Below, one piece after another: positions 5,205 to 64,000 of a stretch of 64,000 nt of DNA. Source of the stretch: Hydra vulgaris (Eukaryota > Cnidaria > Hydrozoa > Anthoathecata > Hydridae); assembly GCF_038396675.1 (NCBI RefSeq), contig NC_088926.1:40133501-40197500 (forward strand). Reading direction: 5' to 3'. The position numbers and the translations under genes are program-made. The number at the start of each line of letters is the position of its first letter. Position 1 is the first letter of the stretch. The notes beneath the pieces were generated by a model. That model was not told where the DNA came from. It saw only the letters and a list, made by a program, of their open reading frames with translations, and searched no databases.

Positions 5205-6659
5205 ATGTCAAGTTGTTACAAAGGAAAACACAACTTAAAACCTGGTAAGCCATACTTCTTTTCCAAATTCGAGGAGGCTGCTTTTGTGAAGTGTACTATT
5301 CAATTGAGTGATTTTGGATTTCCAATTGGTAAAGAAGATTTACGTCATATTATGAATAATTATCTAATTAGTTCAGAAAAGTAAAAGAGTTTAAAATCTT
5401 TCCTGGACCTGATTTAGTTAACTCATTTTTACAAAGACATCCACAACTTACAAGTAAATTTGTGCCATACTTAAAAATCTCGAGCAATGGTTAATGAAGA
5501 AATTTTAAAGGATTATATTCAGCAATTATCAAAAACTGTACAAAATGTACCTCCAAGCAACATATATAAATTCGATGAAACAAATTTGAGTGATGATCCA
5601 GGTTCAAAAAAATGCTTGGTAAAGAGAGGTAATAAATACCCAGCAAATATAAGAAACACTTCTAAGACAAGTGTTTCTATTATGATATCAGGTAATGCTG
5701 CAGATGAAGTTCTACCACCGTTTGTAGTTTATAAAGCCGTAAATTTGTGGTCAACTTGGTGTGAAGGAGGTCCTAAAGGAGTCAGATACTTTAACACTAA
5801 AAGTGGTTGGTTTGACGGAGCAGCTTTTGAAGAGTGGTTTTTTTCTATAGTTTTACCTTCTTTAAAAAAAAAATCAGGAGTTAAAGTTTTGTTAGGCGAT
5901 AACTTATCCTCTCATATCTCTCCAAAAGTAATTAATGCCTGTGAAAAAAATGAAATTCTATTTGTTTGCCTGCCACCTATTAGTACGCATAAAACTCAAC
6001 CTCTAGATGTGGCTTTCTTTAAACCTTTAAAAACAGCTTGGCGTAGAATTATTACAGAGTACAAAGATTCTCCTGCTGGCTGCACAAAAACATCTCTTGA
6101 AAAACAACATTTTCCAGAAATTTTAAACAAGTTATTGATTGCTATAGAACCAAATCAGGTTAACAACTTAAAATCAGGTTTTAGAAAGTGTCGTATTTAT
6201 CCAGTAAATGTCAATCAACTTCTCACACAATTTAGAGAGAGAGAATCGTACGATAAAGAATTTTTAAAAGACAGCTTTAAGATTTTTTTACAAGAAAAAT
6301 ATAAAATCTTGCAGTCTCCAGAAACCAAACAACGAAAAAAAAAGCTTTCTGTTCCTGCAGGAAAAAGTGTTGGCACAGAAGATTTAGAAAAGTTTAGTAA
6401 CAGTTTTGATATTGGCTCAAAGCTTGCAAAGAAAAAAAAACTGAATAAAAACACGAAGAGCATAAAGTCAAAAGTTCAATCTGAAGAAGATCCAAAAGAG
6501 TGCCATGATCACAGTTCTAGCTCAAAATCATTGAGTAGCATTGAAAATAAACTTGTCAACAGATATGATAAGAATGAGAAATCAAGCTCAGAAAATTTGA
6601 AACATGTGAACTTTTTCCTTGACAAATTACAAATGCCAAGGAAAACAGTGCTTTTGTGA
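5205..6659 (+). pseudogene. Pogo/Tigger-like DDE transposase with two 1-bp frameshifts
   Basis: This is the cut-and-paste transposase of the surrounding element (nuclear, TA-targeting by family). The N-terminal part begins at ATG 5205 after a possible intron acceptor (TTTTTTCCAG) and gives the DNA-binding region. One base is missing near 5380 (A-rich), after which PGPDLVNSFLQRHPQLTSKF matches the end of the CENP-B-type helix-turn-helix region. One extra A near 5480 shifts to the long frame starting at 5487. The catalytic core shows all three acidic residues: YKFDETN (first Asp), LLGDNLSSH (second Asp) and KTQPLDVAFF (third Asp), so the triad is DDD as in pogo/Tigger. The C-terminal ~100 residues are Lys/Ser-rich, as in the family. 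The catalytic domain itself is uninterrupted. Confidence 0.9.
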
Positions 6660-21956: not shown

Positions 21957-25878
<3,922 letters not shown>

Positions 25879-25974
25879 CGGTAATGAATAGTGCGCATAG
25901 TTACGCCTAATGTTTCGCCTATTGTTCGTATTGTTATTTACGGTTCTGTAATCTGTAAAATACACTATTTCTTA

Positions 25975-26565
25975 GTTTTTAAGAAGTTTCTAGACTTATT
26001 TATGCGCGGTTACATTTTCCATGCGGTCTTTCAAGTTAAGTCAGCTTGCGAATTTGAGATGATGTACTTTTATTCTCAAGAAGAGTTGATGTTGTTCATT
26101 GTTTAAAACAAAAATTTAAATAATCGTTTGTTAGTTGTTGGTTGTTTTTATTATTCTAATTTTTATAGCCTGTTTTTATTTTTTGGAAGAAGTTAGAAAT
26201 AAAATGTCTGGTAAAATAGTTTTTTTAGTACAATCTAAACATGAATGCTGTAATTTATCTAATCTTCTAAATATGAATACTGTAATTCAATAGAGTTAGT
26301 GTCGTTTCACTTTCTTTCTTAATAAAGAACTTTCTAGGCTTTTCTAAAAGCGTTTCTTTACTCCGCGCGGTCTTTCAAGCAAGGTCTTCCAGCCGATTAG
26401 AGCTGATAAATTTTTAGTTTTAAGTGGAACTGATGTTGTTCATTGTTTAAAAACTAAAATTTGTTTGTTGTTCGTTGTTTTTATTTTTCTGTTTTTTTTT
26501 TAGAAGAAGTTAAAATTAAAATGAGTGGTAAAAAAGTTTTTTTTAGTACAATGTTTCTTTTTTAG
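25975..26565 (+). repeat. Tandem duplication (~250-bp units) covering the 5' region of the micro-exon gene
   Basis: Unit 1 (about 25982-26236) and unit 2 (about 26320-26560) share, in order, GCGCGGTCTTTCAAG-like, GATGTTGTTCATTGTTTAAAA, TTGTTAGTTGTT/TTGTTGTTCGTTG, and an AAGAAGTTA..ATAAAATG block. The block ends ATGTCTG in unit 1 and ATGAGTG in unit 2, each followed by a GTAAAA donor. The spacing between the two ATGs is about 317 bp. In unit 1 the AG preceding the candidate exon is mutated (GG), whereas unit 2 has a poly-T tract and TAG. This could give two alternative first exons. Confidence 0.65.
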
Positions 26566-28366
26566 TAAAGTGTTTCAGTTTTGTCTTCAGTCTTTTTAGA
26601 TCATTTTAAGCAAGTATTGTTTCATTTTTTTAGAGCAGTTAGAAGGAGCTGAAGGCCTTTTTAGTAAATATATAGTGTATAGTAGTTTATTTATAGTTTA
26701 TATTAGTAACATAGTTATATTAGTTTATTTATAGTTTATATTAGTTTATATAGTATATAGTAGTTTATTTATAGTTTATATTAGTTCAAGTTTATTTAGG
26801 GTTTATATTAGTAAGTTTATTTATAGATTATAGATTAGGATTAATGAGAATACAAATTTTTTTTTAGACAAGCTAGCTGACAGCGACTTAAGTAAGTTTT
26901 ATCATATAGATTTTATTTGAGTACAAATGTAGCATTAGCAATTTTATTGTATATAATTTTATTTCAATTTTTATTTTCAGACAGACAGGTAGAACTCAGT
27001 AAGGACTTAGATTTTGTAGATTTAAAAACTTCTTTTGAATATTCTTTTAAAGCATTGAATATGTTTTAAATATTTTAATAAACTTTGTCATTTAGGTGTG
27101 GTAGCATCATCAGTTGGTGCAAGTGGTAGTAATGTCTTTTATTTTATTTTACAGCAAAGAATAATGTTTTTTAATTTATTTTAAAAAGAATCAATAAATT
27201 TTGTTTATTTAAACATAATCATCAGGATAAAATAGATAAGATAGATAAAATAGCTTTTTCATTTAATATTTTTTTATTTAGTAATAACTTCAGTTGCACC
27301 AGCCACAACAGGTAACTTCGTACATTTATTTTAATATACTTGAATTACATTTGTTAGTTAACTTTTCAAGCAATAAATATTTTTTATTTCAACATTTTCG
27401 TCAAGATTATATAAATAAACTTTTTATTTGATAATTTATATTAGTTGCTTCTGGATCAACTTTAAATAATGGTAACTCATTAATTCATATTTTATTATAG
27501 ATAAATGTAGATAAAAAAATGTAAGTTGGAAATTTTTGTAGATTTAAAAGCAGTAAGCTTTTTTCTAAAGGTTCTTTCTATTTTTGGATTAAATCCACTA
27601 TCACTACATTTGTTCTATGTTTACGTAGTGTACTTTAATAATTTTTGTCATTTGAAAAAAAATATATCAATGTTAAATTACACCAGGTTGTCGAAAATAG
27701 TTATAGTTTAATGATAATGTTGTAGACTGTTAGAGCAGATTATAGATCTTTGATCTATTTAATCTATTTAATAACCTACTACCAAAGGGAAAATTTACTA
27801 TCAGTTGTTTGTTTGTTTTTCTGTTTAGTTGACAACAATGAAGAGAGAGGTAGTATGTTTAAAAGGATTTTTATTTTTTTATAAAGTAACTTAAAATGTT
27901 TTTTAAAATATTGTTGTTGACTTAAAAGTAAAACAGTAGGTTTTTATATTTTTATACAATAAGCCCAAGAACTTATAGTTCTTGGGCTTAACTAAGGTAA
28001 TACTTAAAATTATATTGTCAATAATAGAGAAGAAATTTAAAATTCTCAGTAAGACAGCTTCTTATTATTTTACCTCAAGTTAGTTTAATTAAAGTTTATT
28101 TTCTTTAGTTGATCAAGAGAGAGCTAATAAAGGTATTAGTTACATTAGTTTAGTGAATTTATTTTTAAAAAGTTAAGTAGATATTTTAACGTCTATACAT
28201 TTAAGTGCTTTTATTGTTTAGACACAGAATTGAAGACTGAAATAAGTCAGTGTTTTTGCTATTAAAATAATTGTTAATAGGAATTTGTTTATTTGTACTG
28301 TAACTGGAATTTTAAAACTTCAAGTACTAAAGCTTTATTTTCTTTTTTCTTTTAGGAGAGTTGTAA
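26504..28366 (+). CDS. Candidate micro-exon gene: ten in-phase exons of 18-30 nt plus terminal exon
   Basis: Exons by canonical signals: 26504-26527 (24 nt, contains ATGAGTG), 26634-26663 (30), 26868-26891 (24), 26981-26998 (18), 27096-27125 (30), 27282-27311 (30), 27445-27471 (27), 27829-27849 (21), 28109-28132 (24), 28222-28245 (24), and 28356 to the stop TAA at 28364-28366. All internal exons follow a pyrimidine tract plus AG and precede GTAA/GTAG/GTAT/GTCA donors. All are multiples of three and all introns are phase 1, so any exon could be skipped without losing frame. Peptides per exon include QLEGAEGLF, KLADSDL, RQVEL, VVASSVGAS, ITSVAPATT, ASGSTLNN, DNNEER, DQERANK and TELKTEI. The product from ATG 26521 is about 81 residues and acidic, with no signal peptide or known domain. 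An upstream signal-peptide exon could be missing. Function unknown. Transcript evidence is needed. Confidence 0.55.
26664..26867. repeat. AT minisatellite inside a micro-exon gene intron
   Basis: About five imperfect copies of a TAGTTTATTTATAGTTTATAT-like unit between about 26680 and 26830, within the second intron of the micro-exon gene. Confidence 0.7.
27961..27989. repeat. Perfect 12-bp-stem hairpin in an intron
   Basis: AAGCCCAAGAAC, then TTATA, then GTTCTTGGGCTT. It lies in the intron between the 21-nt exon at 27829 and the 24-nt exon at 28109. Confidence 0.9.
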
Positions 28367-32373: not shown

Positions 32374-35300
32374 GGGTGTCTCAAAAAAAAAAAATTTTTT
32401 GAAAATCAAAATGTGGAAAAGCTCAATCGTTATCGTTATGTATTTGTAGCATATTGCGAAAATTTCAGCCGTTCAAATCAACTTTAAGGTAAAGGAGGTG
32501 GTTTAGTCAATTTCTCCATAATAGAATATTATATTGCAAATTTATTATTTATAATAACTTTTTTATGTTAGGAGAATTTAGGAAATACACTTTTCAATAA
32601 TTGTAAATATTTAATTTAATATAATCATTTTTAAGTTATTTACACATTTTTATTTATAATACATGACAAAAATTATTAAAAAATAAAAAAGTAATATAAT
32701 TAATAATTTTAATAGACGTTAAAATGAAAAAAAAATCGATTTGTTTGGTAATTCTTCTAGCACAAAAAATGCGCGCGTTCATATGAAAGTTTTACATAAT
32801 AAGTAAGTTTTCATTTCATTAAAGTTTATTTTTCAATTGTTAAGCGACTTTCTTCAAATAATTTGTTAAGTGTAGATAATTATAATAAAAAGCAACACGT
32901 GTATGCTATGCATGATACGCTTTTTTTTTTGCTTGGCGAAAAAAGTATTTTTTAATAGTATTATTTGCTGTTACGAAACAAACTACTGTACTCTAAGCTA
33001 TATTTTACACTATAAATTTATAAATATATATAATTTTATAAACTGTATTAGCCATATGTTCAGACAATGGCTTCAGGAAAAAAATGCCACAATACAATAC
33101 TAGAGCTGAAGATTTGAGACAGGCTGCAAGAAAGCGTAGACAATTTTATTTGTTAGGCTTTCCACTGCAAAGCTTTGCTCCAATCGACTTCCAACGACTG
33201 GAGAAATGCTCAGAAGATTTAACTGACTCAACACAAGAAAAGAAACTAGGTAACGTCTAAAAAATTTCTGAATTTTATCTTTTTGTTTTTACTTAACCAT
33301 TTGGCATTTTCTTAGCACTACCAAGATAAACTGTAAAGTTGGATGTGTCCTTGCTTCTGGAAAAGGTTATCTGAAATGCAGCAAGTAAGCTGAAGGAATA
33401 TGTGAAGGAAGGAAGGTGAGAAGGAAGGAAGAAGAAGAAGGTGTGAAGGAAGGAAGGTGCATTTTGAGAGAACTAGTAAACTTGTGGAGCAAAGCTGGAT
33501 TTGACAGCAATTTCATACTCACAGAGCAGCAAATTCGAAACAAAATTACCAACAAGTTCAATGAGTACCAATCTCGAAAAAGACTCAAGACTCTAAGTCT
33601 ACCAGAAGGAAGCTACTGCAAGAAAGTAAATAACTTTCTAAATGAAAGCAACTTTTTATTCCCAATTCATAAGACCAACATCTTTAACTTGATAAAGAGT
33701 GATCCATTAAGGAACAGAGAGGCTCAAAAAGAGGACTTTGAATTTCTAAAGCACTGTCTCAAAGGACGCATAGTCAAGATGGCGGGTATTGATAACACAT
33801 TTCAAAAAAATGCTTGTTTAGCTTTGGAGAAAATAAGAATAGTGGAAGAAAAAATGCGCTCACAAAATGAAAAGCTCAGAAATTAAGAAAAAAATAATAA
33901 AAGGAAGGTAGAAGAACTAGAACAAAGAGAGTTTGAAGTTTCCTGGTACACAGACAGTGATAGCCTTCCAGACTCTAACGAAGCTTTTATGCCTCCTACA
34001 AAGACCCAAAAGATTTCAGGGGAAGTAAAAGTTAGTCTTCAGCTAAGTATGGACGAACTCCTAAACAATTGGATCCCAATCATGACAAGATATGGTATTG
34101 GTGTTCGACCAGGAACCTGTTTATTGACACCTCTTTATAAAGCTGGCGGTATTTACATTGAGGAGTTGAAGATCTCAAGATCAATTCTGACTAGGAAAGC
34201 ACACACTGTAGTAGAGTCAGAAGCCCAGATCATCCGAGAGCAGAACATGGACAAAGTAAGATGCTTAAAGCTAGTGATTCACTTTGATACTAAAATTGTT
34301 AGACAGTACACCAGTGAAGAAGCAATTTCCACAAGTCATGAGAGGATAACTATAAGCGTTTCTTCTCCTGAAGCTGACCCTTTAGCTTTTCTGCTTGGTA
34401 TTTTGAAAATTAAATGCTCCAAGGGAAGCGACCAAGCTGTAGCCATTTAAGGTATCCTCGAATACTATGAGCTATCAGATCAAGTTATTGGGGTGTGTGC
34501 TGACACCACAGCTAGCAACACAGGAAAGAACAATGGACCTATTAGAAATGTTATTCTTCATGTTTTGGGGAGGCCTGTTCTCTGGCTAATGTGCAGAAAT
34601 CACATATATGAGAGACATGTGTCTCATTTCATGGAATTTATTTTTGGTACAACAAAAAGTCTAAGCTAACACCTCTATGTTTTACTTCAGAAGCTATGGC
34701 CGCAAATACATAGAGAAGTTGATAAACTTGAAAGAATTGTCAAATTTGAATGGTCTCAGGATGCATTTAGACCAGGTACTCTTTTGCACCAACTTGAAGT
34801 TGAAACTAAAAAATTTTGCACCACAGCACTTCAGAGAAACACTTTCCAAAGAGGAGACTACAAGTATCTTTGCCAGCTGCTGGCTTACTTCCTGGGTGCA
34901 GGTATATCTAATTTTTTCTTTTGGCAGCCGGGAGCTCACCGTGAGGCCAGGTTTATGAGTGACTGTCTTTACCTTCTTGTTCTGCAGATCACACAAAACT
35001 ATCATCCGAATGATTCAAAAACAGTAGAGCCTGCTACTCTCAAGAACATAAACACTGCTACAAATTATATTGTGTTTTTCCAAGGTCTATTCTTTCTGAA
35101 GAGTCCTATGGCAACTCAAGCTCCTTCAAATGACCTAAGAGCTTTTAAGATAGCTTACCAGCACCAAATGTCAGATGATAACAATGCCTATGCAGAGATT
35201 GGGAAAGTTCTCAACAAAAGTCTTCTACGGCACACTTGGTATCTAGCTCCCCAGCTTGTATTTTTGTCAATTGCTGACAGGGATCTAGATACAGACGTTA

Positions 35301-36422
35301 AGAACAACATCCTTAGCAAATTGTTGTATTTTGCCGTTCTAGAAAAAGAATATATGGTGCTTGAGAAACCTAGAATCAAGCCAGTCATTGTTCCAATGTC
35401 ATCTCTTGATGGTTTTGTCTCCGACCAAAGTTATCTTCTCTTTTTTCTCCTAGAATGCATGAAGGAAGAGCTTTTGCTGTAGAGAGAGAAAGGTATAGCA
35501 GTTCGCGAAAGTAAGAGAGCCCCTAAGTCATTTGTCAAGTTTTCTGCTTGTGCAAATCAGCTTGCAGTTATAAATGATAGGGCAGAACGTCACATAAAGC
35601 TGATCCAAGACTTCATTGGAAGGGCATATAACGAGGATAGACTTCAGGATACTCTTCAGATAATTACTAAACATTATTATACAGACATGCAGTGTGTAAG
35701 TTGTTAGGGGGAGGGGGTCGATTTTGAAAAATTAGGCATTTTAGAATAGCACATATCATGCTCATTTTTAATAACAAAAAAAGGAAGTCAATCGCATTTA
35801 ACAATTTACACCTAACAACCACTTACCCCACCCAATGTACGCGCATGCTACAAAATAATGTTTGCAAAATTTTTTAAAGTATTTCCATATCATTTTATTT
35901 AATAAAATAAACTATTAATTTCTAATACGAGGAATTTTATTGCTTTGATTATTTAATTATTTTACAAATTAACCTGCTTTTTTAATTTTATATATTATTT
36001 TCTAGGTTGTCCGTAAAAACAGACAGCAAGTATCCAAGAAAGTTACAAAGAAGTACCTGCATAACATCTAACAAGTATTACAACTGTAATCACGTTTTTG
36101 TTGCTTTTAAACTCAATTTAGAATTATTATCTGAAATAAAATTGTCACACAAAATCTGTATTTTCTTTATTCTATTAGATATATTTTAAATCGAAACCAG
36201 TGTTTTGTGAGTAATTTAAATTTAAAGCTAGCTATATTCGAAACTTTAAAATATAATATTCAGGAAAAGTTATATTATATAGAAATTGACTAAAACCACC
36301 TTCTTTACGTTAGAGTTGATTTGGGAGGCTGAAATTTTTACTATAAGTTACTAATACATAATAATAACGATTGAACTTTTCCACACTTTGATTTTCAAAA
36401 AAAAAGTTTTTTTGAGACACCC
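32374..36422 (+). mobile_element. 4.05-kb DNA transposon, GGGTGTCTC termini, copy 2 of the uncharacterised family
   Basis: Terminal inverted repeats of about 160 bp (32374-32535 against the inverse of 36265-36422), with shared GGGTGTCTCAAAAAAA, GAAAATCAAA.TGTGGAAAAG and GTAAAG.AGGTGGTTTAGTCA parts. A TA follows the right end. TAA precedes the left end. A direct repeat TTTTTTTGTAAATGAAGGTG followed by GACAT lies outside both ends (about 32347-32371 and 36434-36459), which may be a pre-existing repeat or part of a neighbouring element. It carries one plus-strand transposase-like gene. Confidence 0.85.
33084..35707 (+). pseudogene. Uncharacterised RNase H-like transposase candidate (FDTK / ADTTASNTG family), copy 2
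   Basis: Exon 1 (33084-33249) reads MPQYNTRAEDLRQAARKRRQ and ends at a GT donor. The main exon runs in one single frame from about 33416 to at least 35700, interrupted by stops at 33884, 34448, about 34667 and 35480. The 34448 TAA sits where copy 1 has Gln (AIQNILEYYE), consistent with a C-to-T change. Conserved blocks: LVIHFDTKIVRQY, QVIGVCADTTASNTG, IYERHVSHFMEFIFGTTKS, FQRGDYKYLCQLLAYFLG, GAHREARFMSDCLYLL, SPMATQAPSNDL, and NDRAERHIKLIQDF near the end. There is no intron at the position where copy 1 has one. Function as transposase is inferred from its place inside terminal repeats. This copy is dead. Confidence 0.78.
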
Positions 36423-40625: not shown

Positions 40626-40799
40626 TCATGGCTCCTTAGTTTTACTTTTTTTAAAAACACGATCTCATTATCGATAATTGGAAGTCGGCCAACAATGGCA
40701 ACATGTAGATTTGTGCTTAAAAACTTTATGTTGTTGACTAAACTGATTGTAATACAATTTTAAACAAACATAGAAAAACGAATTTGCTAGGTGTATGGT

Positions 40800-42455
40800 T
40801 CTACCACTTACTAAATTGTGCAAGTTGATGACGAAATGCAAGAGTGTAGGCAATGTTACAAAAACTGCACACAATGTGGGCTAATCTCTTAAAAAAATTG
40901 TGATTGGCTTCAAAACGCTTGCACCACATCTTGGCTAATGGCTCATTTTTTATGATTAGACTTGGATAATGTGTAAGTCTGTGGTGTTTGTACATTAAAC
41001 TCTTATTAGGAAAAAGATTTTTGAATAGGGTGTTATGGTCAGAAATCAAAGCCGCTAAATATGTCATGTCAAATTTGTGGACTGCAGGTGAAAATATAAT
41101 ATTTGAAATTTTTAACAGTAGCAGCAAAAGTTTCCAGTGTTTGGAGTTACTTGGTACTTTATCACCAATCAACAAAGGCAGAACAATAAGTAAAGTCATT
41201 TTTTGACTAGATCTCTGTCCCAGAAGAGAACTGTTATCTTTTGATTGATTTTCAGTTATCAGACCGGGTTTTTTGTCTTGTAATGTTAATCCATAAGGAA
41301 AATGTCTAAGACAATTATTTAACAAATTTAAATCAAAAAGATGTTGAACGTAAATAAAATTATAAAGAACCAATTTGATTTCTAAAGGAGCTATACCTTC
41401 TAAAATATCATGCATGATGTGCCCAGTATCATTTTTAGCCGGATGATAGTACTTAAGTTCTTTTAAAATACTTATAACTTTTATTCCAAACTCAGCTTTA
41501 CAAACTTGCTGCATAGCTAGTTTGTTAACAATTTCCTCATATTGTGCTACAGTTTGTTGAAGCGTTGGAACTTCTGTAATAATGCTTTGCATTGTTTTTT
41601 TGTCAGCTGTGCAAAAATCACAGCAAGAGAAAGATTATACATAGCCTAACAGACTATACATAGCCTAAACATGTATGAAGTCTAAGATTGTCTCCTGTAA
41701 TTTGACCATGAATGCATCGCACATGTCTTGAAGTAGCATCATCATCAACTTTTATTTGAAACCCATCCTCCATACACTTTAAATTATCAACAATGGCTCT
41801 TAAAACTGCATTAATGCCATATTTTTTTATGTCATTGACATATGTTAATGCAATTAAATGTACATTTGCTAAATTGGAATTAAAAACAGCTGGAAAATTT
41901 TTCAGAATAAAGTAAAATGTTCCAAGCTTATGTATGGACGCTTTTGATCCTATAAGATTTACTGTATCTACTTCATCATAATACAGTTGAATAATAAGTT
42001 CGTGGGTGATAAAATTAACTGAAGGCAAAGGATGGCGATTTCAATGCGCTTGGTAATTACTTCCATCTTGGTAGTCCCATAAGATTCCACCTTCAGCTCT
42101 ATTTTCACTAAAAGTGCAGGCTGACCAGCAATCAGAGTGTCTAAAAATATACTTAAGGGTTTTGCTGATAGGCACAAACATAAAAGTGTCTTCTACTTGA
42201 ACTTGCTTGCCCACCTTTGTTTCCCACCGATGTCCCAATACAATTTCAGTAGGGATATTTAATGCACCAACCCTTTCTAGATATGTACTCAGCTTTTTCA
42301 TAGTATCAATATTCTGGAATGGGTGTTCAAGAGCAGCAAGAAAAATTTCTGCTGTGTTTTTATTCTCTAAATAATTCATAGTAAATACTTCGCTGACTTT
42401 ATGTTGCACAGCACAAGCAAAAACAGAAAACACCTCATCCAAGCCATTACGGATG
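40800..42455 (-). pseudogene. Repeat-encoded protein, 'DILEG / FEANHNFFK' family, truncated inverted copy
   Basis: Same sequence as 45621-47275 in opposite orientation. Minus-strand frames give DEVFSVFACAVQHKVSEVF, IIQLYYDEVDTVNLIGSK with SIHKLGTFYFILKNFP, MHDILEGIAPLEIKLVLYNF and WCKRFEANHNFFKRLAHIV. The copy ends exactly where the other copy continues, after LAQFSKW at 40800. That is near a GTAAGT-like donor (AGTAAGTGG). Shared defects with the other copy are an in-frame TGA (42041-42043), a stop after HTCLGYV, and a 20-bp tandem duplication around 41640-41670. The family is repeat-associated in cnidarians and fish. Its biochemical role is unknown to me. Confidence 0.7.
40800..42455. repeat. 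Left arm of a ~1.65-kb near-identical inverted duplication
   Basis: The inverse of this arm is 45621-47275. Every translated stretch I compared is identical, including non-coding and broken parts. Boundaries: CCGTAATGGCTTGGATGAGG at one end and CAATTTAGTAAGTGGT at the other, beyond which the sequences diverge at once. The spacer between the arms is about 3.17 kb. Confidence 0.9.
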
Positions 42456-45620: not shown

Positions 45621-47275
45621 TATCCGTAATGGCTTGGATGAGGTGTTTTCTGTTTTTGCTTGTGCTGTGCAACATAAAGTCAGCGAAGTATTTACTATGA
45701 ATTATTTAGAGAATAAAAACACAGCAGAAATTTTTCTTGCTGCTCTTGAACACCCATTCCAGAATATTGATACTATGAAAAAGCTGAGTACATATCTAGA
45801 AAGGGTTGGTGCATTAAATATCCCTACTGAAATTGTATTGGGACATCGGTGGGAAACAAAGGTGGGCAAGCAAGTTCAAGTAGAAGACACTTTTATGTTT
45901 GTGCCTATCAGCAAAACCCTTAAGTATATTTTTAGACACTCTGATTGCTGGTCAGCCTGCACTTTTAGTGAAAATAGAGCTGAAGGTGGAATCTTATGGG
46001 ACTACCAAGATGGAAGTAATTACCAAGCGCATTGAAATCGCCATCCTTTGCCTTCAGTTAATTTTATCACCCACGAACTTATTATTCAACTGTATTATGA
46101 TGAAGTAGATACAGTAAATCTTATAGGATCAAAAGCGTCCATACATAAGCTTGGAACATTTTACTTTATTCTGAAAAATTTTCCAGCTGTTTTTAATTCC
46201 AATTTAGCAAATGTACATTTAATTGCATTAACATATGTCAATGACATAAAAAAATATGGCATTAATGCAGTTTTAAGAGCCATTGTTGATAATTTAAAGT
46301 GTATGGAGGATGGGTTTCAAATAAAAGTTGATGATGATGCTACTTCAAGACATGTGCGATGCATTCATGGTCAAATTACAGGAGACAATCTTAGACTTCA
46401 TACATGTTTAGGCTATGTATAGTCTGTTAGGCTATGTATAATCTTTCTCTTGCTGTGATTTTTGCACAGCTGACAAAAAAACAATGCAAAGCATTATTAC
46501 AGAAGTTCCAACGCTTCAACAAACTGTAGCACAATATGAGGAAATTGTTAACAAACTAGCTATGCAGCAAGTTTGTAAAGCTGAGTTTGGAATAAAAGTT
46601 ATAAGTATTTTAAAAGAACTTAAGTACTATCATCCGGCTAAAAATGATACTGGGCACATCATGCATGATATTTTAGAAGGTATAGCTCCTTTAGAAATCA
46701 AATTGGTTCTTTATAATTTTATTTACGTTCAACATCTTTTTGATTTAAATTTGTTAAATAATTGTCTTAGACATTTTCCTTATGGATTAACATTACAAGA
46801 CAAAAAACCCGGTCTGATAACTGAAAATCAATCAAAAGATAACAGTTCTCTTCTGGGACAGAGATCTAGTCAAAAAATGACTTTACTTATTGTTCTGCCT
46901 TTGTTGATTGGTGATAAAGTACCAAGTAACTCCAAACACTGGAAACTTTTGCTGCTACTGTTAAAAATTTCAAATATTATATTTTCACCTGCAGTCCACA
47001 AATTTGACATGACATATTTAGCGGCTTTGATTTCTGACCATAACACCCTATTCAAAAATCTTTTTCCTAATAAGAGTTTAATGTACAAACACCACAGACT
47101 TACACATTATCCAAGTCTAATCATAAAAAATGAGCCATTAGCCAAGATGTGGTGCAAGCGTTTTGAAGCCAATCACAATTTTTTTAAGAGATTAGCCCAC
47201 ATTGTGTGCAGTTTTTGTAACATTGCCTACACTCTTGCATTTCGTCATCAACTTGCACAATTTAGTAAGTGGTGG
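45621..47275. repeat. Right arm of the ~1.65-kb inverted duplication
   Basis: Near-identical inverse of 40800-42455 (see that entry). This arm continues into further coding sequence at its 3' end, so it is the more complete copy and plausibly the source. Confidence 0.9.
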
Positions 47276-47725
47276 AAAAAAACAGGTTTTAAACAAAGCC
47301 TTGTTGTGGGCACATTTACAGAAACGCTTTTATATCTTGTGCTGAATAGAGAAACAATATCATCACATTTTGCAGAAAAACATGCTGTTGTATATTTAGC
47401 AAATTTTATTGAAGCCTATGGTAATGTTTACAAACCTGGAATGTCACTAATAGGAGACATTAAAGAACATGGGGAGCCAAACTTTATTTGTATAGACAAG
47501 ATTGTGATCATGGACAAAAAAGCTCATTTGTTATGCCATAATTTTAGGCTGATTCAGTTTGATGAGTACCTACACAGTTACACTGTATCTTGTGATGACA
47601 CCAAAACTGTCAGCTGTTGCTTGATAGTCTGTTTGACTATCATCCTGTTTTTTCGGGTACTTGCTATAATCCGATCTGTCACTTTATGCATATTTTATTG
47701 CGTCACACACACTATGTGCAGATAA
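45621..47725 (+). pseudogene. Repeat-encoded protein, 'DILEG / FEANHNFFK' family, longer copy
   Basis: 45634-46422 is one frame interrupted by TGA at 46033-46035: DEVFSVFACAVQHKVSEVF, LGHRWETKVGKQVQ, then VDTVNLIGSKASIHKLGTFY and HGQITGDNLRLHTCLGYV. A 20-bp tandem duplication (46411-46450) then shifts the frame. With the duplication discounted, the next residues are SFSCCDFCTADKKTMQS (a Cys motif), but a TAA remains. The frame 46484-47725 (413 codons) carries the conserved MHDILEGIAPLEIKLVLYNF, DKVPSNSKHWKLLLLLLKI, KHHRLTHYPSLI and WCKRFEANHNFFKRLAHIV, then extends beyond the duplicated arm with NFIEAYGNVYKPGMSLIGDI. A repeat-borne family of unknown activity, probably transposon-derived. Confidence 0.7.
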
Positions 47726-53883: not shown

Positions 53884-54263
53884 GGGCCTGTTTATATGGA
53901 AACCGGGCTGGCTCGTTTGCCGAGCCAGCCCGTTTGCCGAGATATCGACGTCATCAATATTTTAACTTAATCTTATTTTGCGTTTATATAAATAAACGAG
54001 CTAGCCCGGACAGCGATATCTCACTGTTTTTTGCCAAGATCTCGGCAAACGGGCTGGTTAATTTCTTATATAAATTTGTACGCATGCGTACAAATTCTTA
54101 CATTTTTTCAAAAAAAAGCTTCCGCGTTAAATAATAAATGTAATAATAAAACTGGCAATTTCCGTGTACTTAAAATTTTAGTTGCTTTACTTTTATAATT
54201 TACAATTAATTTTCGATTTTATTAGTTACAGTTTTATTTATATAGCTGCAACTCTCACTCAAA

Positions 54264-55208
54264 ATGGCTGATTTTATTGATAAAACAAAAAGAAAAAACT
54301 TCAAATGGGATCATAATATGATAGAGAACCTTATAAACTGTGCTATCAGCTATAAAGCAAGGATGCTTTATAAAAACCTTGACTTTGATGCCGATAAAGT
54401 TGGTTTATATAGAGAAGTTCGCTTATCTATGGCAGAGATCTATAATAAAAATGAAGAGTTGTATTATGGGCCTGTTGTCATCAATACTTTAAATGGAAAG
54501 GACTCAAAAGAAGTAATAAAACGAGGAATTAAACGAGTTCAAGAAAAATTGAAGGAAATTCGACAAACGCTTTCGAAAGCAGTTGTTAGTGGAAGTCGAA
54601 GTGGAAGTGGAAAAACTATTTTTGAGTTTTACGACCAGCTCATCTGCTTTTGGGGTAGTTCAGCCAATATTGAACCACTTATATTTGGTGTTAAAGGGGA
54701 TGATTATATTGAAACCGAAGAAACTCATTTTTCAATTGATCAAGAATTATCAGAAGAGGTAGAGTTAGTCATCAACAGTGATACTGTAGAAAATATTAAT
54801 AACCCTAAAAAAGAAAAAGCTGTATACCAAAACTCATTGACAACAAAAGAAAGCACTTAGAACGAAACTTAAGCGCCGCCCAACGCGACCAAATACTGCT
54901 TAAACAAGCTAGAGACGATACTCAATTTAGAAAAGAGATGACAGAAGCAATGCAAGAATCGACAAAGTGCTTCACAGAAAGTATTAACACTAAGTAAATC
55001 AATGACTGACCTGGGAAATGGCATAAGTCGTTCTATTGAGCTTTTGGCACAAGCTATGATAGTACAAACTCAACAACAATCAGCAAACCAAAATCAGTTC
55101 TATCAACATTCACCTAACGTATATTCACAAATGCAATTTAGTCCCTTAGTGTTACCAACAAATACTTGTCAAGATAGAAACACTTTCGAATATATTGAGA
55201 AAAAATAA
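54264..55208 (+). pseudogene. Harbinger Myb/SANT-like DNA-binding protein, frameshifted twice
   Basis: Partner protein of Harbinger transposase, which in characterised family members binds the element ends and brings the transposase to the nucleus. ATG 54264 follows a 5' leader. Residues 1-140 form a trihelix/SANT-like domain: KWDHNMIENLINCAISYK, YKNLDFDADKVGLYREVR, ELYYGPVVINTLNGKDS and KRVQEKLKEIRQ. The open frame ends at 54858, but coding-like sequence continues in another frame (LSAAQRDQILLKQARDDTQF) and, after a second shift near 54990, as DLGNGISRSIELLAQAMI with a Gln/Asn-rich end at 55208. Single-base changes at the two points would explain the breaks. It probably encoded about 310 residues. 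Confidence 0.8.
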
Positions 55209-55420: not shown

Positions 55421-56542
55421 TTAATTTATCAAGTCTGTAAGAGTTCTTCGTATAACTAATCCTTCAGCTTCATTTATAGAATATATTGGGTTTGGTACAT
55501 TTTTGTATTCTTTTTCGTTTTTTTTAATGAGATCTGTTTGTGATTTAGCTAGGTCGTTGTCAACATAAGAATTTGTTTTTTCACATATGTTATGCAATAC
55601 AAAACAGGCATAAATAACAGTAGGAACAGCTTCCAGTTTAAGGTCAACCTTTCTTGTTAAAATACCCCATCTAACTTTAAGGCGACCAAAAGCGCACTCA
55701 ATAGGATTTTGTGCTGCTCTAAGCATGTTGTTAAAAATTATCTCTTCATTATTTGAACAATGTTCATATTCTTTCATACAGAATGGTAGTAATGGATAGG
55801 CTGGATTACCAATAAAATAATTAGGTATCTTCTCTGCTTTTTTTGTTGGTTTTTGAAACGTTTGAGGAAGAATAGTATTTCTTAACTTCATATTTATTGA
55901 TGAGTTTGCAAACACTTTAACATCATGTACACTTCCTGGCCACATGCACTCAACATCCATGAAATAGCCTTTGTAATCGCATACAGCTTGAACACTAAGA
56001 GAAAAATATTGCTTATAGCAAAAAAAATCTTGTGAGTTAGTTAATGGAAAACGAATAGGGATATGGGTGCCATCGATGCATCCAAAGACTTGTGTCATTC
56101 CAAATTTACTTTCAAACTCTGATACTTTATTTCGCATTTCAGTTTGATTTCTTGGAAGAAATAGATACTTTGGCTCAAGATACTTTGATATTGCCTTACA
56201 AACTAAAATTTTACCAGCAGAAGCAGTGCATACTGCAATTCCAAAAGTATTTGCAGCCATTCCCAAAGATCTAGTATATTTTAAGTAATATAAAGTAAAA
56301 GCTACTTTTTTATCTGCTGATAGAGCTCTAGAGTTAGGCGAAAAAGGGTATGGAGATAAATAAGGGCTTAACTCTGAAACCAAATTCATGAAAAGAAACC
56401 GTGAAAGCCTAAAATTTGTTTTCCATACATCAATTGGAGCTACACCAGTTATTATATTATCCCACCATAAATCAGTTCTGCCAATTTTAAACCAGCAACT
56501 ACAATTTTTTCTTTTAAGGCGCCTCTCTCTTGCTTGTTTCAT
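55421..56542 (-). CDS. PIF/Harbinger DDE transposase (DDE_Tnp_4), uninterrupted 373 codons
   Basis: Cut-and-paste transposase. Start ATG at 56542 ([13 protein letters not shown]), and the whole frame is open to TAA at 55421. Motifs in order: [36 protein letters not shown], the helix-turn-helix region [20 protein letters not shown] with [14 protein letters not shown], the first catalytic Asp in [30 protein letters not shown], the second Asp in [11 protein letters not shown], and the catalytic Glu in [26 protein letters not shown] closes the core. Length (about 370) is normal. One oddity: the usual G-D-x-x-Y-P segment reads [10 protein letters not shown], Asp replaced by Asn. The gene may be intact but is perhaps inactive. 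Confidence 0.93.
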
Positions 56543-56895
56543 CTTTTAAAGTGGTTTTGATCGTTTTCGTAAAAGAATAATATTTAAAAAATTATCAAAT
56601 TTAAATTTGTGAAACTTGTATAATACTATTAGGCTTTTAAGAAGCATTATTTGTGTTATAACACAAGTTAAACATATTGTTAAAATGCAATGTGTTTTTT
56701 TGTCGATAGCCGCCATCTTTAAAGCTATTATTTTACCGATAAAGAGGCTAGCCCTGCTAGAAAAAGCAAGGCTAACCTCGATATCATTTTTTATTTTTTC
56801 GGCAAAATTTCTTATAAACGCAATTTTAAAACTGGCTCGTTTTCCGGGCTAGCTCGGCAAACGGGCTAGCCCTTTTCCATAAAAACAGGCCCTAA

Positions 56896-63030: not shown

Positions 63031-64000
63031 TTATAAATGCAAAAGTGGGAGTGCAGCATATTTTTGGTTGTAAGACAAAAGTAGATACTTCTTATCAATG
63101 GAGCAAGACTTTGTATTGTCTGATAAATTACAAACTAAGTATACGCCAACGGATGATGAGTTCGAAGGATATGTGAAAAGTGTTTCTACGCTTTCAAATG
63201 TGTTGTATAAAACTAAAATATCATTATCTCCATATTTTTTAACTATATTTTGCACAAAAATAATTTCAACAGTTTTCAATTGACAACAACTGTCACCCAC
63301 AGTACACTTAATACAAAAATCTCTTAAAATCACTTGCTTATGCTGAGATTCAATATCTGTAATATCATTTTTGAAGCCTAATATTCTGCTGCTTTTTTAA
63401 TATAGGATACTTCAATTCAACTGCTTTTAGTTCCAATAAATTTTTTTCATGCAATCTTCGTTGTACCTGTTGTAATGAAAAATTTGGCTTTCGTATTAAC
63501 TTTTTCAGCTGACCAAGATAGTTTTTAAATGGAAACGCAGATATGTTGTCAGAATGGTCCATACTTGATTGCAGCTCGGCACAAATGTGAAAGCCCATGC
63601 ATATTATAAGTTATCACCTCTGGACCATACATATCTGAGGTATGTTTAATGAACAGATTAAGTAAAGTATTATCACTGACAGCATGATGTACACATAATT
63701 TTGGACACAATAAAATTCTCATAGCAACAGATAATAACAAGAAGTTTTTATACATGGCTTCATTTAGTATATCTGCTAAGTATACAAAACCACTATATAA
63801 CAAGAATTGTCTGAGTTCGGTTGCTTTCCACCTTTCAAATTCAGACACAGCCCTAGGCTTACGAGCAAATTCTTTTGGTATATACTTAGAAGCACCAACC
63901 AATCGAACAGAAAGTCATGTTGAACCTCTTGCACCTAATCTAACATGCAAATGACCTTTCAACCATATGTAAAGCAACTTTCTTACCATTCCCAAGCAGA
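63031..64000 (-). pseudogene. tnp2/DUF4218-like (CACTA-type) transposase relic, partial at window edge
   Basis: Minus-strand, entering from the right edge: CLGMVRKLLYIWLKGHLHVR, LGARGST, an in-frame TGA near 63918, SVRLVGASKYIPKEFARKP, RWKATELRQFLLYSG, NEAMYKNFLLLSVAMRILLC, MYGPEVITYNMHGLSHL and AIKYGPF. One extra base near 63552 then shifts to DNISAFPFKNYLGQLKKLIR and LQQVQRRLHE. A last part (63333-63031) reads DCFIKCTVGDSC-like, FVQNIVKKYGDNDILVLYN, SVGVYLVCNLSD and ALPLLHL with a stop. This order matches the DUF4218-type C-terminal half of tnp2-like transposases found in plants and, as repeats, in cnidarians. Superfamily assignment (EnSpm/CACTA) is by recollection of these motifs. Confidence 0.65.

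Follow-up and report, generated by a model that had tools for sequence, protein, structure and literature searches.

A candidate gene of consecutive same-phase micro-exons in Hydra vulgaris, predicted to encode a small acidic protein

Introduction

Genes built largely of very small exons have been described in schistosomes, aphids, and sea anemones. In schistosome micro-exon genes (MEGs), symmetric exons of only 6–36 bp make up about 80% of the coding sequence (PMC5825161); another account gives exon lengths of 6–81 bp, with 15 bp for most MEG exons (PMC10526429). MEG introns measure 100–5000 bp, and nearly all of the proteins carry an N-terminal signal peptide and are either secreted or anchored in a membrane. 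Aphid bicycle genes have many very small internal exons, nearly all of which start at codon position 2, and comprise about 17 exons on average (PMC9168663); their characteristics include a CYC motif and a signal sequence. Within cnidarians, the SA8 family of sea anemones is composed of microexons, with three to five exons, large introns, and cysteine-patterned peptides of a toxin family (PMC10210398). Here, we describe a candidate micro-exon gene on the + strand of a 64,000-nt stretch of Hydra vulgaris DNA (NC_088926.1, positions 40,133,501 to 40,197,500), referred to as the window. All coordinates given below are positions within this window.

Results and Discussion

Comparison with described micro-exon systems

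The original prediction had likened the locus to schistosome MEGs, a group that makes variable secreted peptides. The likeness stands for the layout: nine symmetric exons of 18–30 nt, with lengths inside the MEG ranges, hold 228 of the 246 coding letters (stop codon counted), so that most of the coding sequence is in short symmetric exons, as in MEGs. It does not extend to the protein as predicted, whose N-terminus is charged and, unlike that of nearly all MEG proteins, shows no signal peptide. The exons are also longer than the 15 bp of most MEG exons (PMC10526429), and the introns (89–357 nt) fall at the low end of the MEG range.

As in bicycle genes, the open frame places the first base of each of the nine internal exons at codon position 2, and codon periodicity agrees for eight of them. 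In contrast, the bicycle hallmarks of CYC motif and signal sequence are not seen here (0 Cys and 0 Tyr in 81 residues; no hydrophobic N-terminus), and the exon number is 11 rather than about 17 (PMC9168663). With SA8, the locus shares construction from microexons in a cnidarian (PMC10210398), but SA8 genes have fewer exons, larger introns, and cysteine-patterned products, whereas the protein predicted here contains no cysteine. Among the literature matches listed, SA8 was the one microexon gene family from a cnidarian; a literature search joining micro-exon genes, Hydra, and cnidaria returned no paper. Judged from its sequence, the locus would be a micro-exon gene in layout, and as far as the comparisons reach, the gene as predicted falls outside the MEG and bicycle families.

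Architecture of the locus

We consider it probable that the locus is an intact, real gene of 11 tiny exons whose transcript is mainly spliced into one full-length message, encoding a leaderless acidic protein of 81–83 residues. Searched for by script, every one of the ten segments occurred a single time, at the position that the original prediction implied (Table 1). The splice-like borders, lengths divisible by three, common phase, and terminal stop were all present as described there. Because the ATG sits in the first segment, only nine segments are internal symmetric exons. A T-rich stretch followed by AG precedes each of the ten, and the donors are GTAA (six), GTAG (two), GTAT (one), and GTCA (one). 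All ten introns are in phase 1, and the spliced frame remains open over 81 residues from the ATG at 26521 to the stop codon. At exons 5 and 8, a second GT donor lies 3 nt downstream in frame, which would give products of 81, 82, or 83 residues and internal exons of up to 33 nt. The order of the stop codon and a subsequent AATAAA is as expected for a gene end.

Table 1. Features of the candidate gene and its upstream region. Positions refer to the 64,000-nt window.
Feature	Position	Strand	Remarks
Diverged copy of promoter/first-exon region	25960..26237	+	borders approximate; from repeat families and MAFFT alignment
Exon 1	26504..26527	+	24 nt; 17-nt leader followed by ATG AGT G; start codon (context AAAATG) at 26521
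Exon 2	26634..26663	+	30 nt, phase 1
Exon 3	26868..26891	+	24 nt, phase 1
Exon 4	26981..26998	+	18 nt, phase 1; periodicity slightly favors another frame
Exon 5	27096..27125	+	30 nt, phase 1; 33 nt with the alternative donor after 27128
Exon 6	27282..27311	+	30 nt, phase 1
Exon 7	27445..27471	+	27 nt, phase 1; weakest acceptor
Exon 8	27829..27849	+	21 nt, phase 1; 24 nt with the alternative donor GTATGT after 27852
Exon 9	28109..28132	+	24 nt, phase 1
Exon 10	28222..28245	+	24 nt, phase 1
Terminal exon, coding part	28356..28366	+	stop codon TAA at 28364-28366
AATAAA	28404..28409	+	candidate poly(A) signal

Splicing to the full-length message would be aided by the T-tracts and by the short, very AT-rich introns. 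In the intron between exons 8 and 9, an inverted repeat of 14 bp without mismatches flanks a 3-nt loop (27960-27990) and could fold as a hairpin in the pre-mRNA.

Evidence for coding

It had been claimed that the frame stays open through every junction. This is correct, but on its own it is weak evidence: G or A is the last base of every exon before an intron (ten of ten), which precludes a stop codon at any phase-1 junction, whichever exons are joined. Stop-free junctions and skippable exons are thus by-products of this arrangement. The weight is carried by the internal open codons and by codon periodicity. Exons with shuffled letters kept an open frame at a frequency of only 0.00185, and the joined exons contain 11 stops in each of the two alternative frames.

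Periodicity was scored with the codon-position frequencies of 15 long open reading frames (ORFs) in the window, a test independent of splice-site strength. Phase 1 (first base at codon position 2) gave the best fit for eight of the nine internal exons. The summed advantage of phase 1 over the mean of the two other frames was 30.6 bits, a value matched by none of 20000 within-exon letter shuffles. GC content by codon position was 53, 40, and 28% in the gene, following the same order as in the 15 long ORFs (43, 33, and 29%). Exons 2–10 have a GC content of 40% compared with 20% in the introns; exon 1, which is mostly leader, has 21%. Together with the chain length described below, these sequence signals give good support to protein coding by the symmetric, same-phase micro-exons.

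Chain length compared with controls

Chains were searched for by joining segments of 15–36 nt between acceptor-like and donor-like sites, requiring a single phase, an open frame, and introns of 50–450 nt. The longest compatible chain comprised 11 segments at the locus, compared with five on the + strand when the locus was masked and three on the − strand. Among 3000 control sequences from Markov models trained on the locus (1500 each for orders 2 and 4), the maximum was nine, reached by three sequences, and none gave a chain of ten or more. The chain of 11 consists of ten segments matching those originally predicted plus one doubtful segment of 36 nt, and its length is ten when the latter is left out; two of its segments use the later donor, and exon 6 starts at 27294 instead of 27282. 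Splice-like segments of 15–36 nt were more often divisible by three in the locus (15 of 23) than elsewhere on both strands (156 of 456; binomial 0.0023, which serves as a guide only, since some segments share a site and are hence not independent).

The additional 36-nt segment (26775-26810) is not claimed as an exon. It sits in a tandem repeat of intron 2 (26671-26832, unit of about 38 nt), which includes these acceptor- and donor-like sites.

Predicted protein

The expectation of an acidic product of about 81 residues without a known domain was borne out. The predicted protein has an isoelectric point of 4.28 and contains no Trp or His in addition to lacking Cys and Tyr. It can be divided into a charged N-terminal part, a middle part rich in Val, Ala, Ser, and Thr, and a charged C-terminal part, which may be helical. 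Among 11-residue stretches starting in the first 20 residues, the best hydropathy was 0.56; judged by hydropathy, without a signal-peptide program, no signal peptide was seen at the predicted N-terminus. The most hydrophobic stretch is located in mid-protein and is borderline (1.59 over 19 residues). We infer that the product would be a leaderless acidic protein that probably stays inside the cell.

Several observations weigh against an intact coding gene. The predicted protein had no match in Pfam up to E = 1 and none below E = 0.05 among the solved structures in the Protein Data Bank (PDB); two PDB matches with E = 0.057 and 0.29 were taken as chance. The long ORFs behind the periodicity model are themselves unverified, and exon 4 slightly favors another frame. 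The GC excess of exons 2–10 over other splice-like segments is modest (mean 0.397 vs 0.319, a value that random draws reached with a frequency of 0.022). Among the donors, GTAGTA (used twice), GTATTA, and GTCAGT are weak, as is the pyrimidine tract at the acceptor of exon 7. Under a stricter acceptor rule, which rejects that acceptor, the longest chain was reduced to seven segments, six of them among those originally predicted, because exon 7 drops out.

Exon skipping

Any subset of the nine internal exons can be skipped in frame, and the 512 combinations predict 512 different proteins. Frame alone would thus permit up to 512 open products, leaving variant generation by exon skipping as a possibility. 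A stronger version of this idea holds that the gene, as in schistosomes, exists mainly to produce many variants through skipping of symmetric micro-exons, to which the second donors of exons 5 and 8 would add variants differing by one residue. We regard this as improbable. Stop-free skipping is automatic for phase-1 introns that follow G or A, and, with no signal peptide seen at the predicted N-terminus, the schistosome logic of secreted variants does not apply as it stands. For the gene with one main full-length message that we favor, exon skipping may fine-tune the product, but this is not its proven purpose.

Two further ideas on the exons were tried and set aside. Tandem exon duplication as the origin of the exons is not claimed: the best pair was formed by exons 8 and 9, and its top score was equalled in 29 of 500 shuffles. 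A fuzzy search of the window for paralogs of the nine internal exons, allowing up to about 20% errors, gave nothing convincing; it yielded three shifted self-matches and three poor matches of exon 8 elsewhere in the window.

The 5′ end and its upstream copy

The ATG of exon 1 is preceded, at a distance of 17 nt, by a run of ten T and AG. This AG could serve as an acceptor for trans-splicing, for cis-splicing, or for neither. Trans-splicing may affect 67–94% of the genes of Hydra vulgaris (PMC7986045), and in a genome of that kind the AG before exon 1 would be a natural trans-splice acceptor. At this site, directly ahead of the 17-nt leader, a spliced leader might take the place of the original 5′ end of the message.

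About 317–333 bases before the first-exon region lies a diverged copy of it (Table 1), with matching stretches of 52 nt (87%), 38 nt (87%), and 34 nt (76%). The portion that corresponds to the exon lies within 26175-26226; there, ATG TCT G stands ahead of GTAAAA and would again encode Met-Ser followed by a phase-1 donor. The acceptor AG is replaced by GG in this copy, and a TATAG at 26164-26168 could substitute for it. The copy may be a relic, or it may serve as an alternative first exon and promoter leading to the same start of the protein.

A different account of this region would be that the 5′ end is incomplete, with a distant exon, perhaps encoding a signal peptide, spliced in phase 1 into the 24-nt first segment. 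The small size of this segment and the strong acceptor before it are in line with such an arrangement, and by eye the segment is free of stops before its ATG when read in phase 1. However, no leader exon (at least 18 codons, hydropathy of at least 2.0 over 11 residues, and a phase-1 donor) was detected in 22001-26503, a weak negative, as eight of 14 comparison stretches of 4.5 kb on the + strand also had none (the other six had one to four) and the search would overlook a farther or shorter leader exon. Moreover, the upstream copy keeps the ATG and donor while the AG is lost there; the start of a transcript or the use of a spliced leader would explain this at least equally well. We give an incomplete 5′ end little credence.

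Least likely of all is a chance alignment of splice-like signals in AT-rich DNA, or a decayed gene: such signals are dense (456 segments outside the locus) and chance chains of nine did arise in the Markov controls, but chain length, periodicity, GC contrast, and the intact frame all oppose this explanation.

Implications

If the favored gene is expressed, a protein could be built almost wholly from same-phase exons of 6–11 codons outside flatworms and aphids, and without secretion. Expression would also allow one to ask whether micro-exon architectures come from neutral intron gain or from the making of variants, and it would raise the question of how the spliceosome defines ten such exons consecutively. 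A broader proposal is that micro-exon genes arose independently in a lineage other than the flatworms, possibly a cnidarian one, with the entire coding sequence divided among same-phase exons no longer than about 30 nt, here for a leaderless protein. Such an architecture would depend on neither secretion nor parasitism and may create intracellular variants. This proposal is tentative, and we rate it as rather doubtful at present. Ordinary gene finders would be likely to miss genes of this kind, and more of them may hide in AT-rich animal genomes.

Other features of the window

No known RNA families or tRNAs were detected in the window. A scan of 26000-26600 for bacterial-type promoters gave nothing, a result with no bearing on an animal gene.

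An inverted repeat of 1663 bp (40792-42454 and 45622-47284) has arms that are 100% complementary, lie 3167 bp apart, and contain the same ORFs. Two scanned ORFs of the second arm had no Pfam match. This repeat may stem from a recent duplication in inverted orientation, from a mobile element, or from the assembly itself. The ORF at 63031-63396 on the − strand matched a virus-capping methyltransferase model of Pfam weakly (E = 0.0024; 17.7 bits, under the cut-off of 25.2) and is perhaps an old viral insertion.

Two transposase ORFs were identified with Pfam, namely DDE_1 at 5475-6659 (+) and DDE_Tnp_4 at 55421-56545 (−). Opposite the latter, at 54246-54860 (+), is an ORF of 204 amino acids without a Pfam match; such an arrangement occurs in PIF/Harbinger elements. 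Finally, two sets of adjoining ORFs, at 22425-24426 (−) and 33389-35482 (+), in which four scanned ORFs had no Pfam match, look alike by eye and are probably copies of one element.
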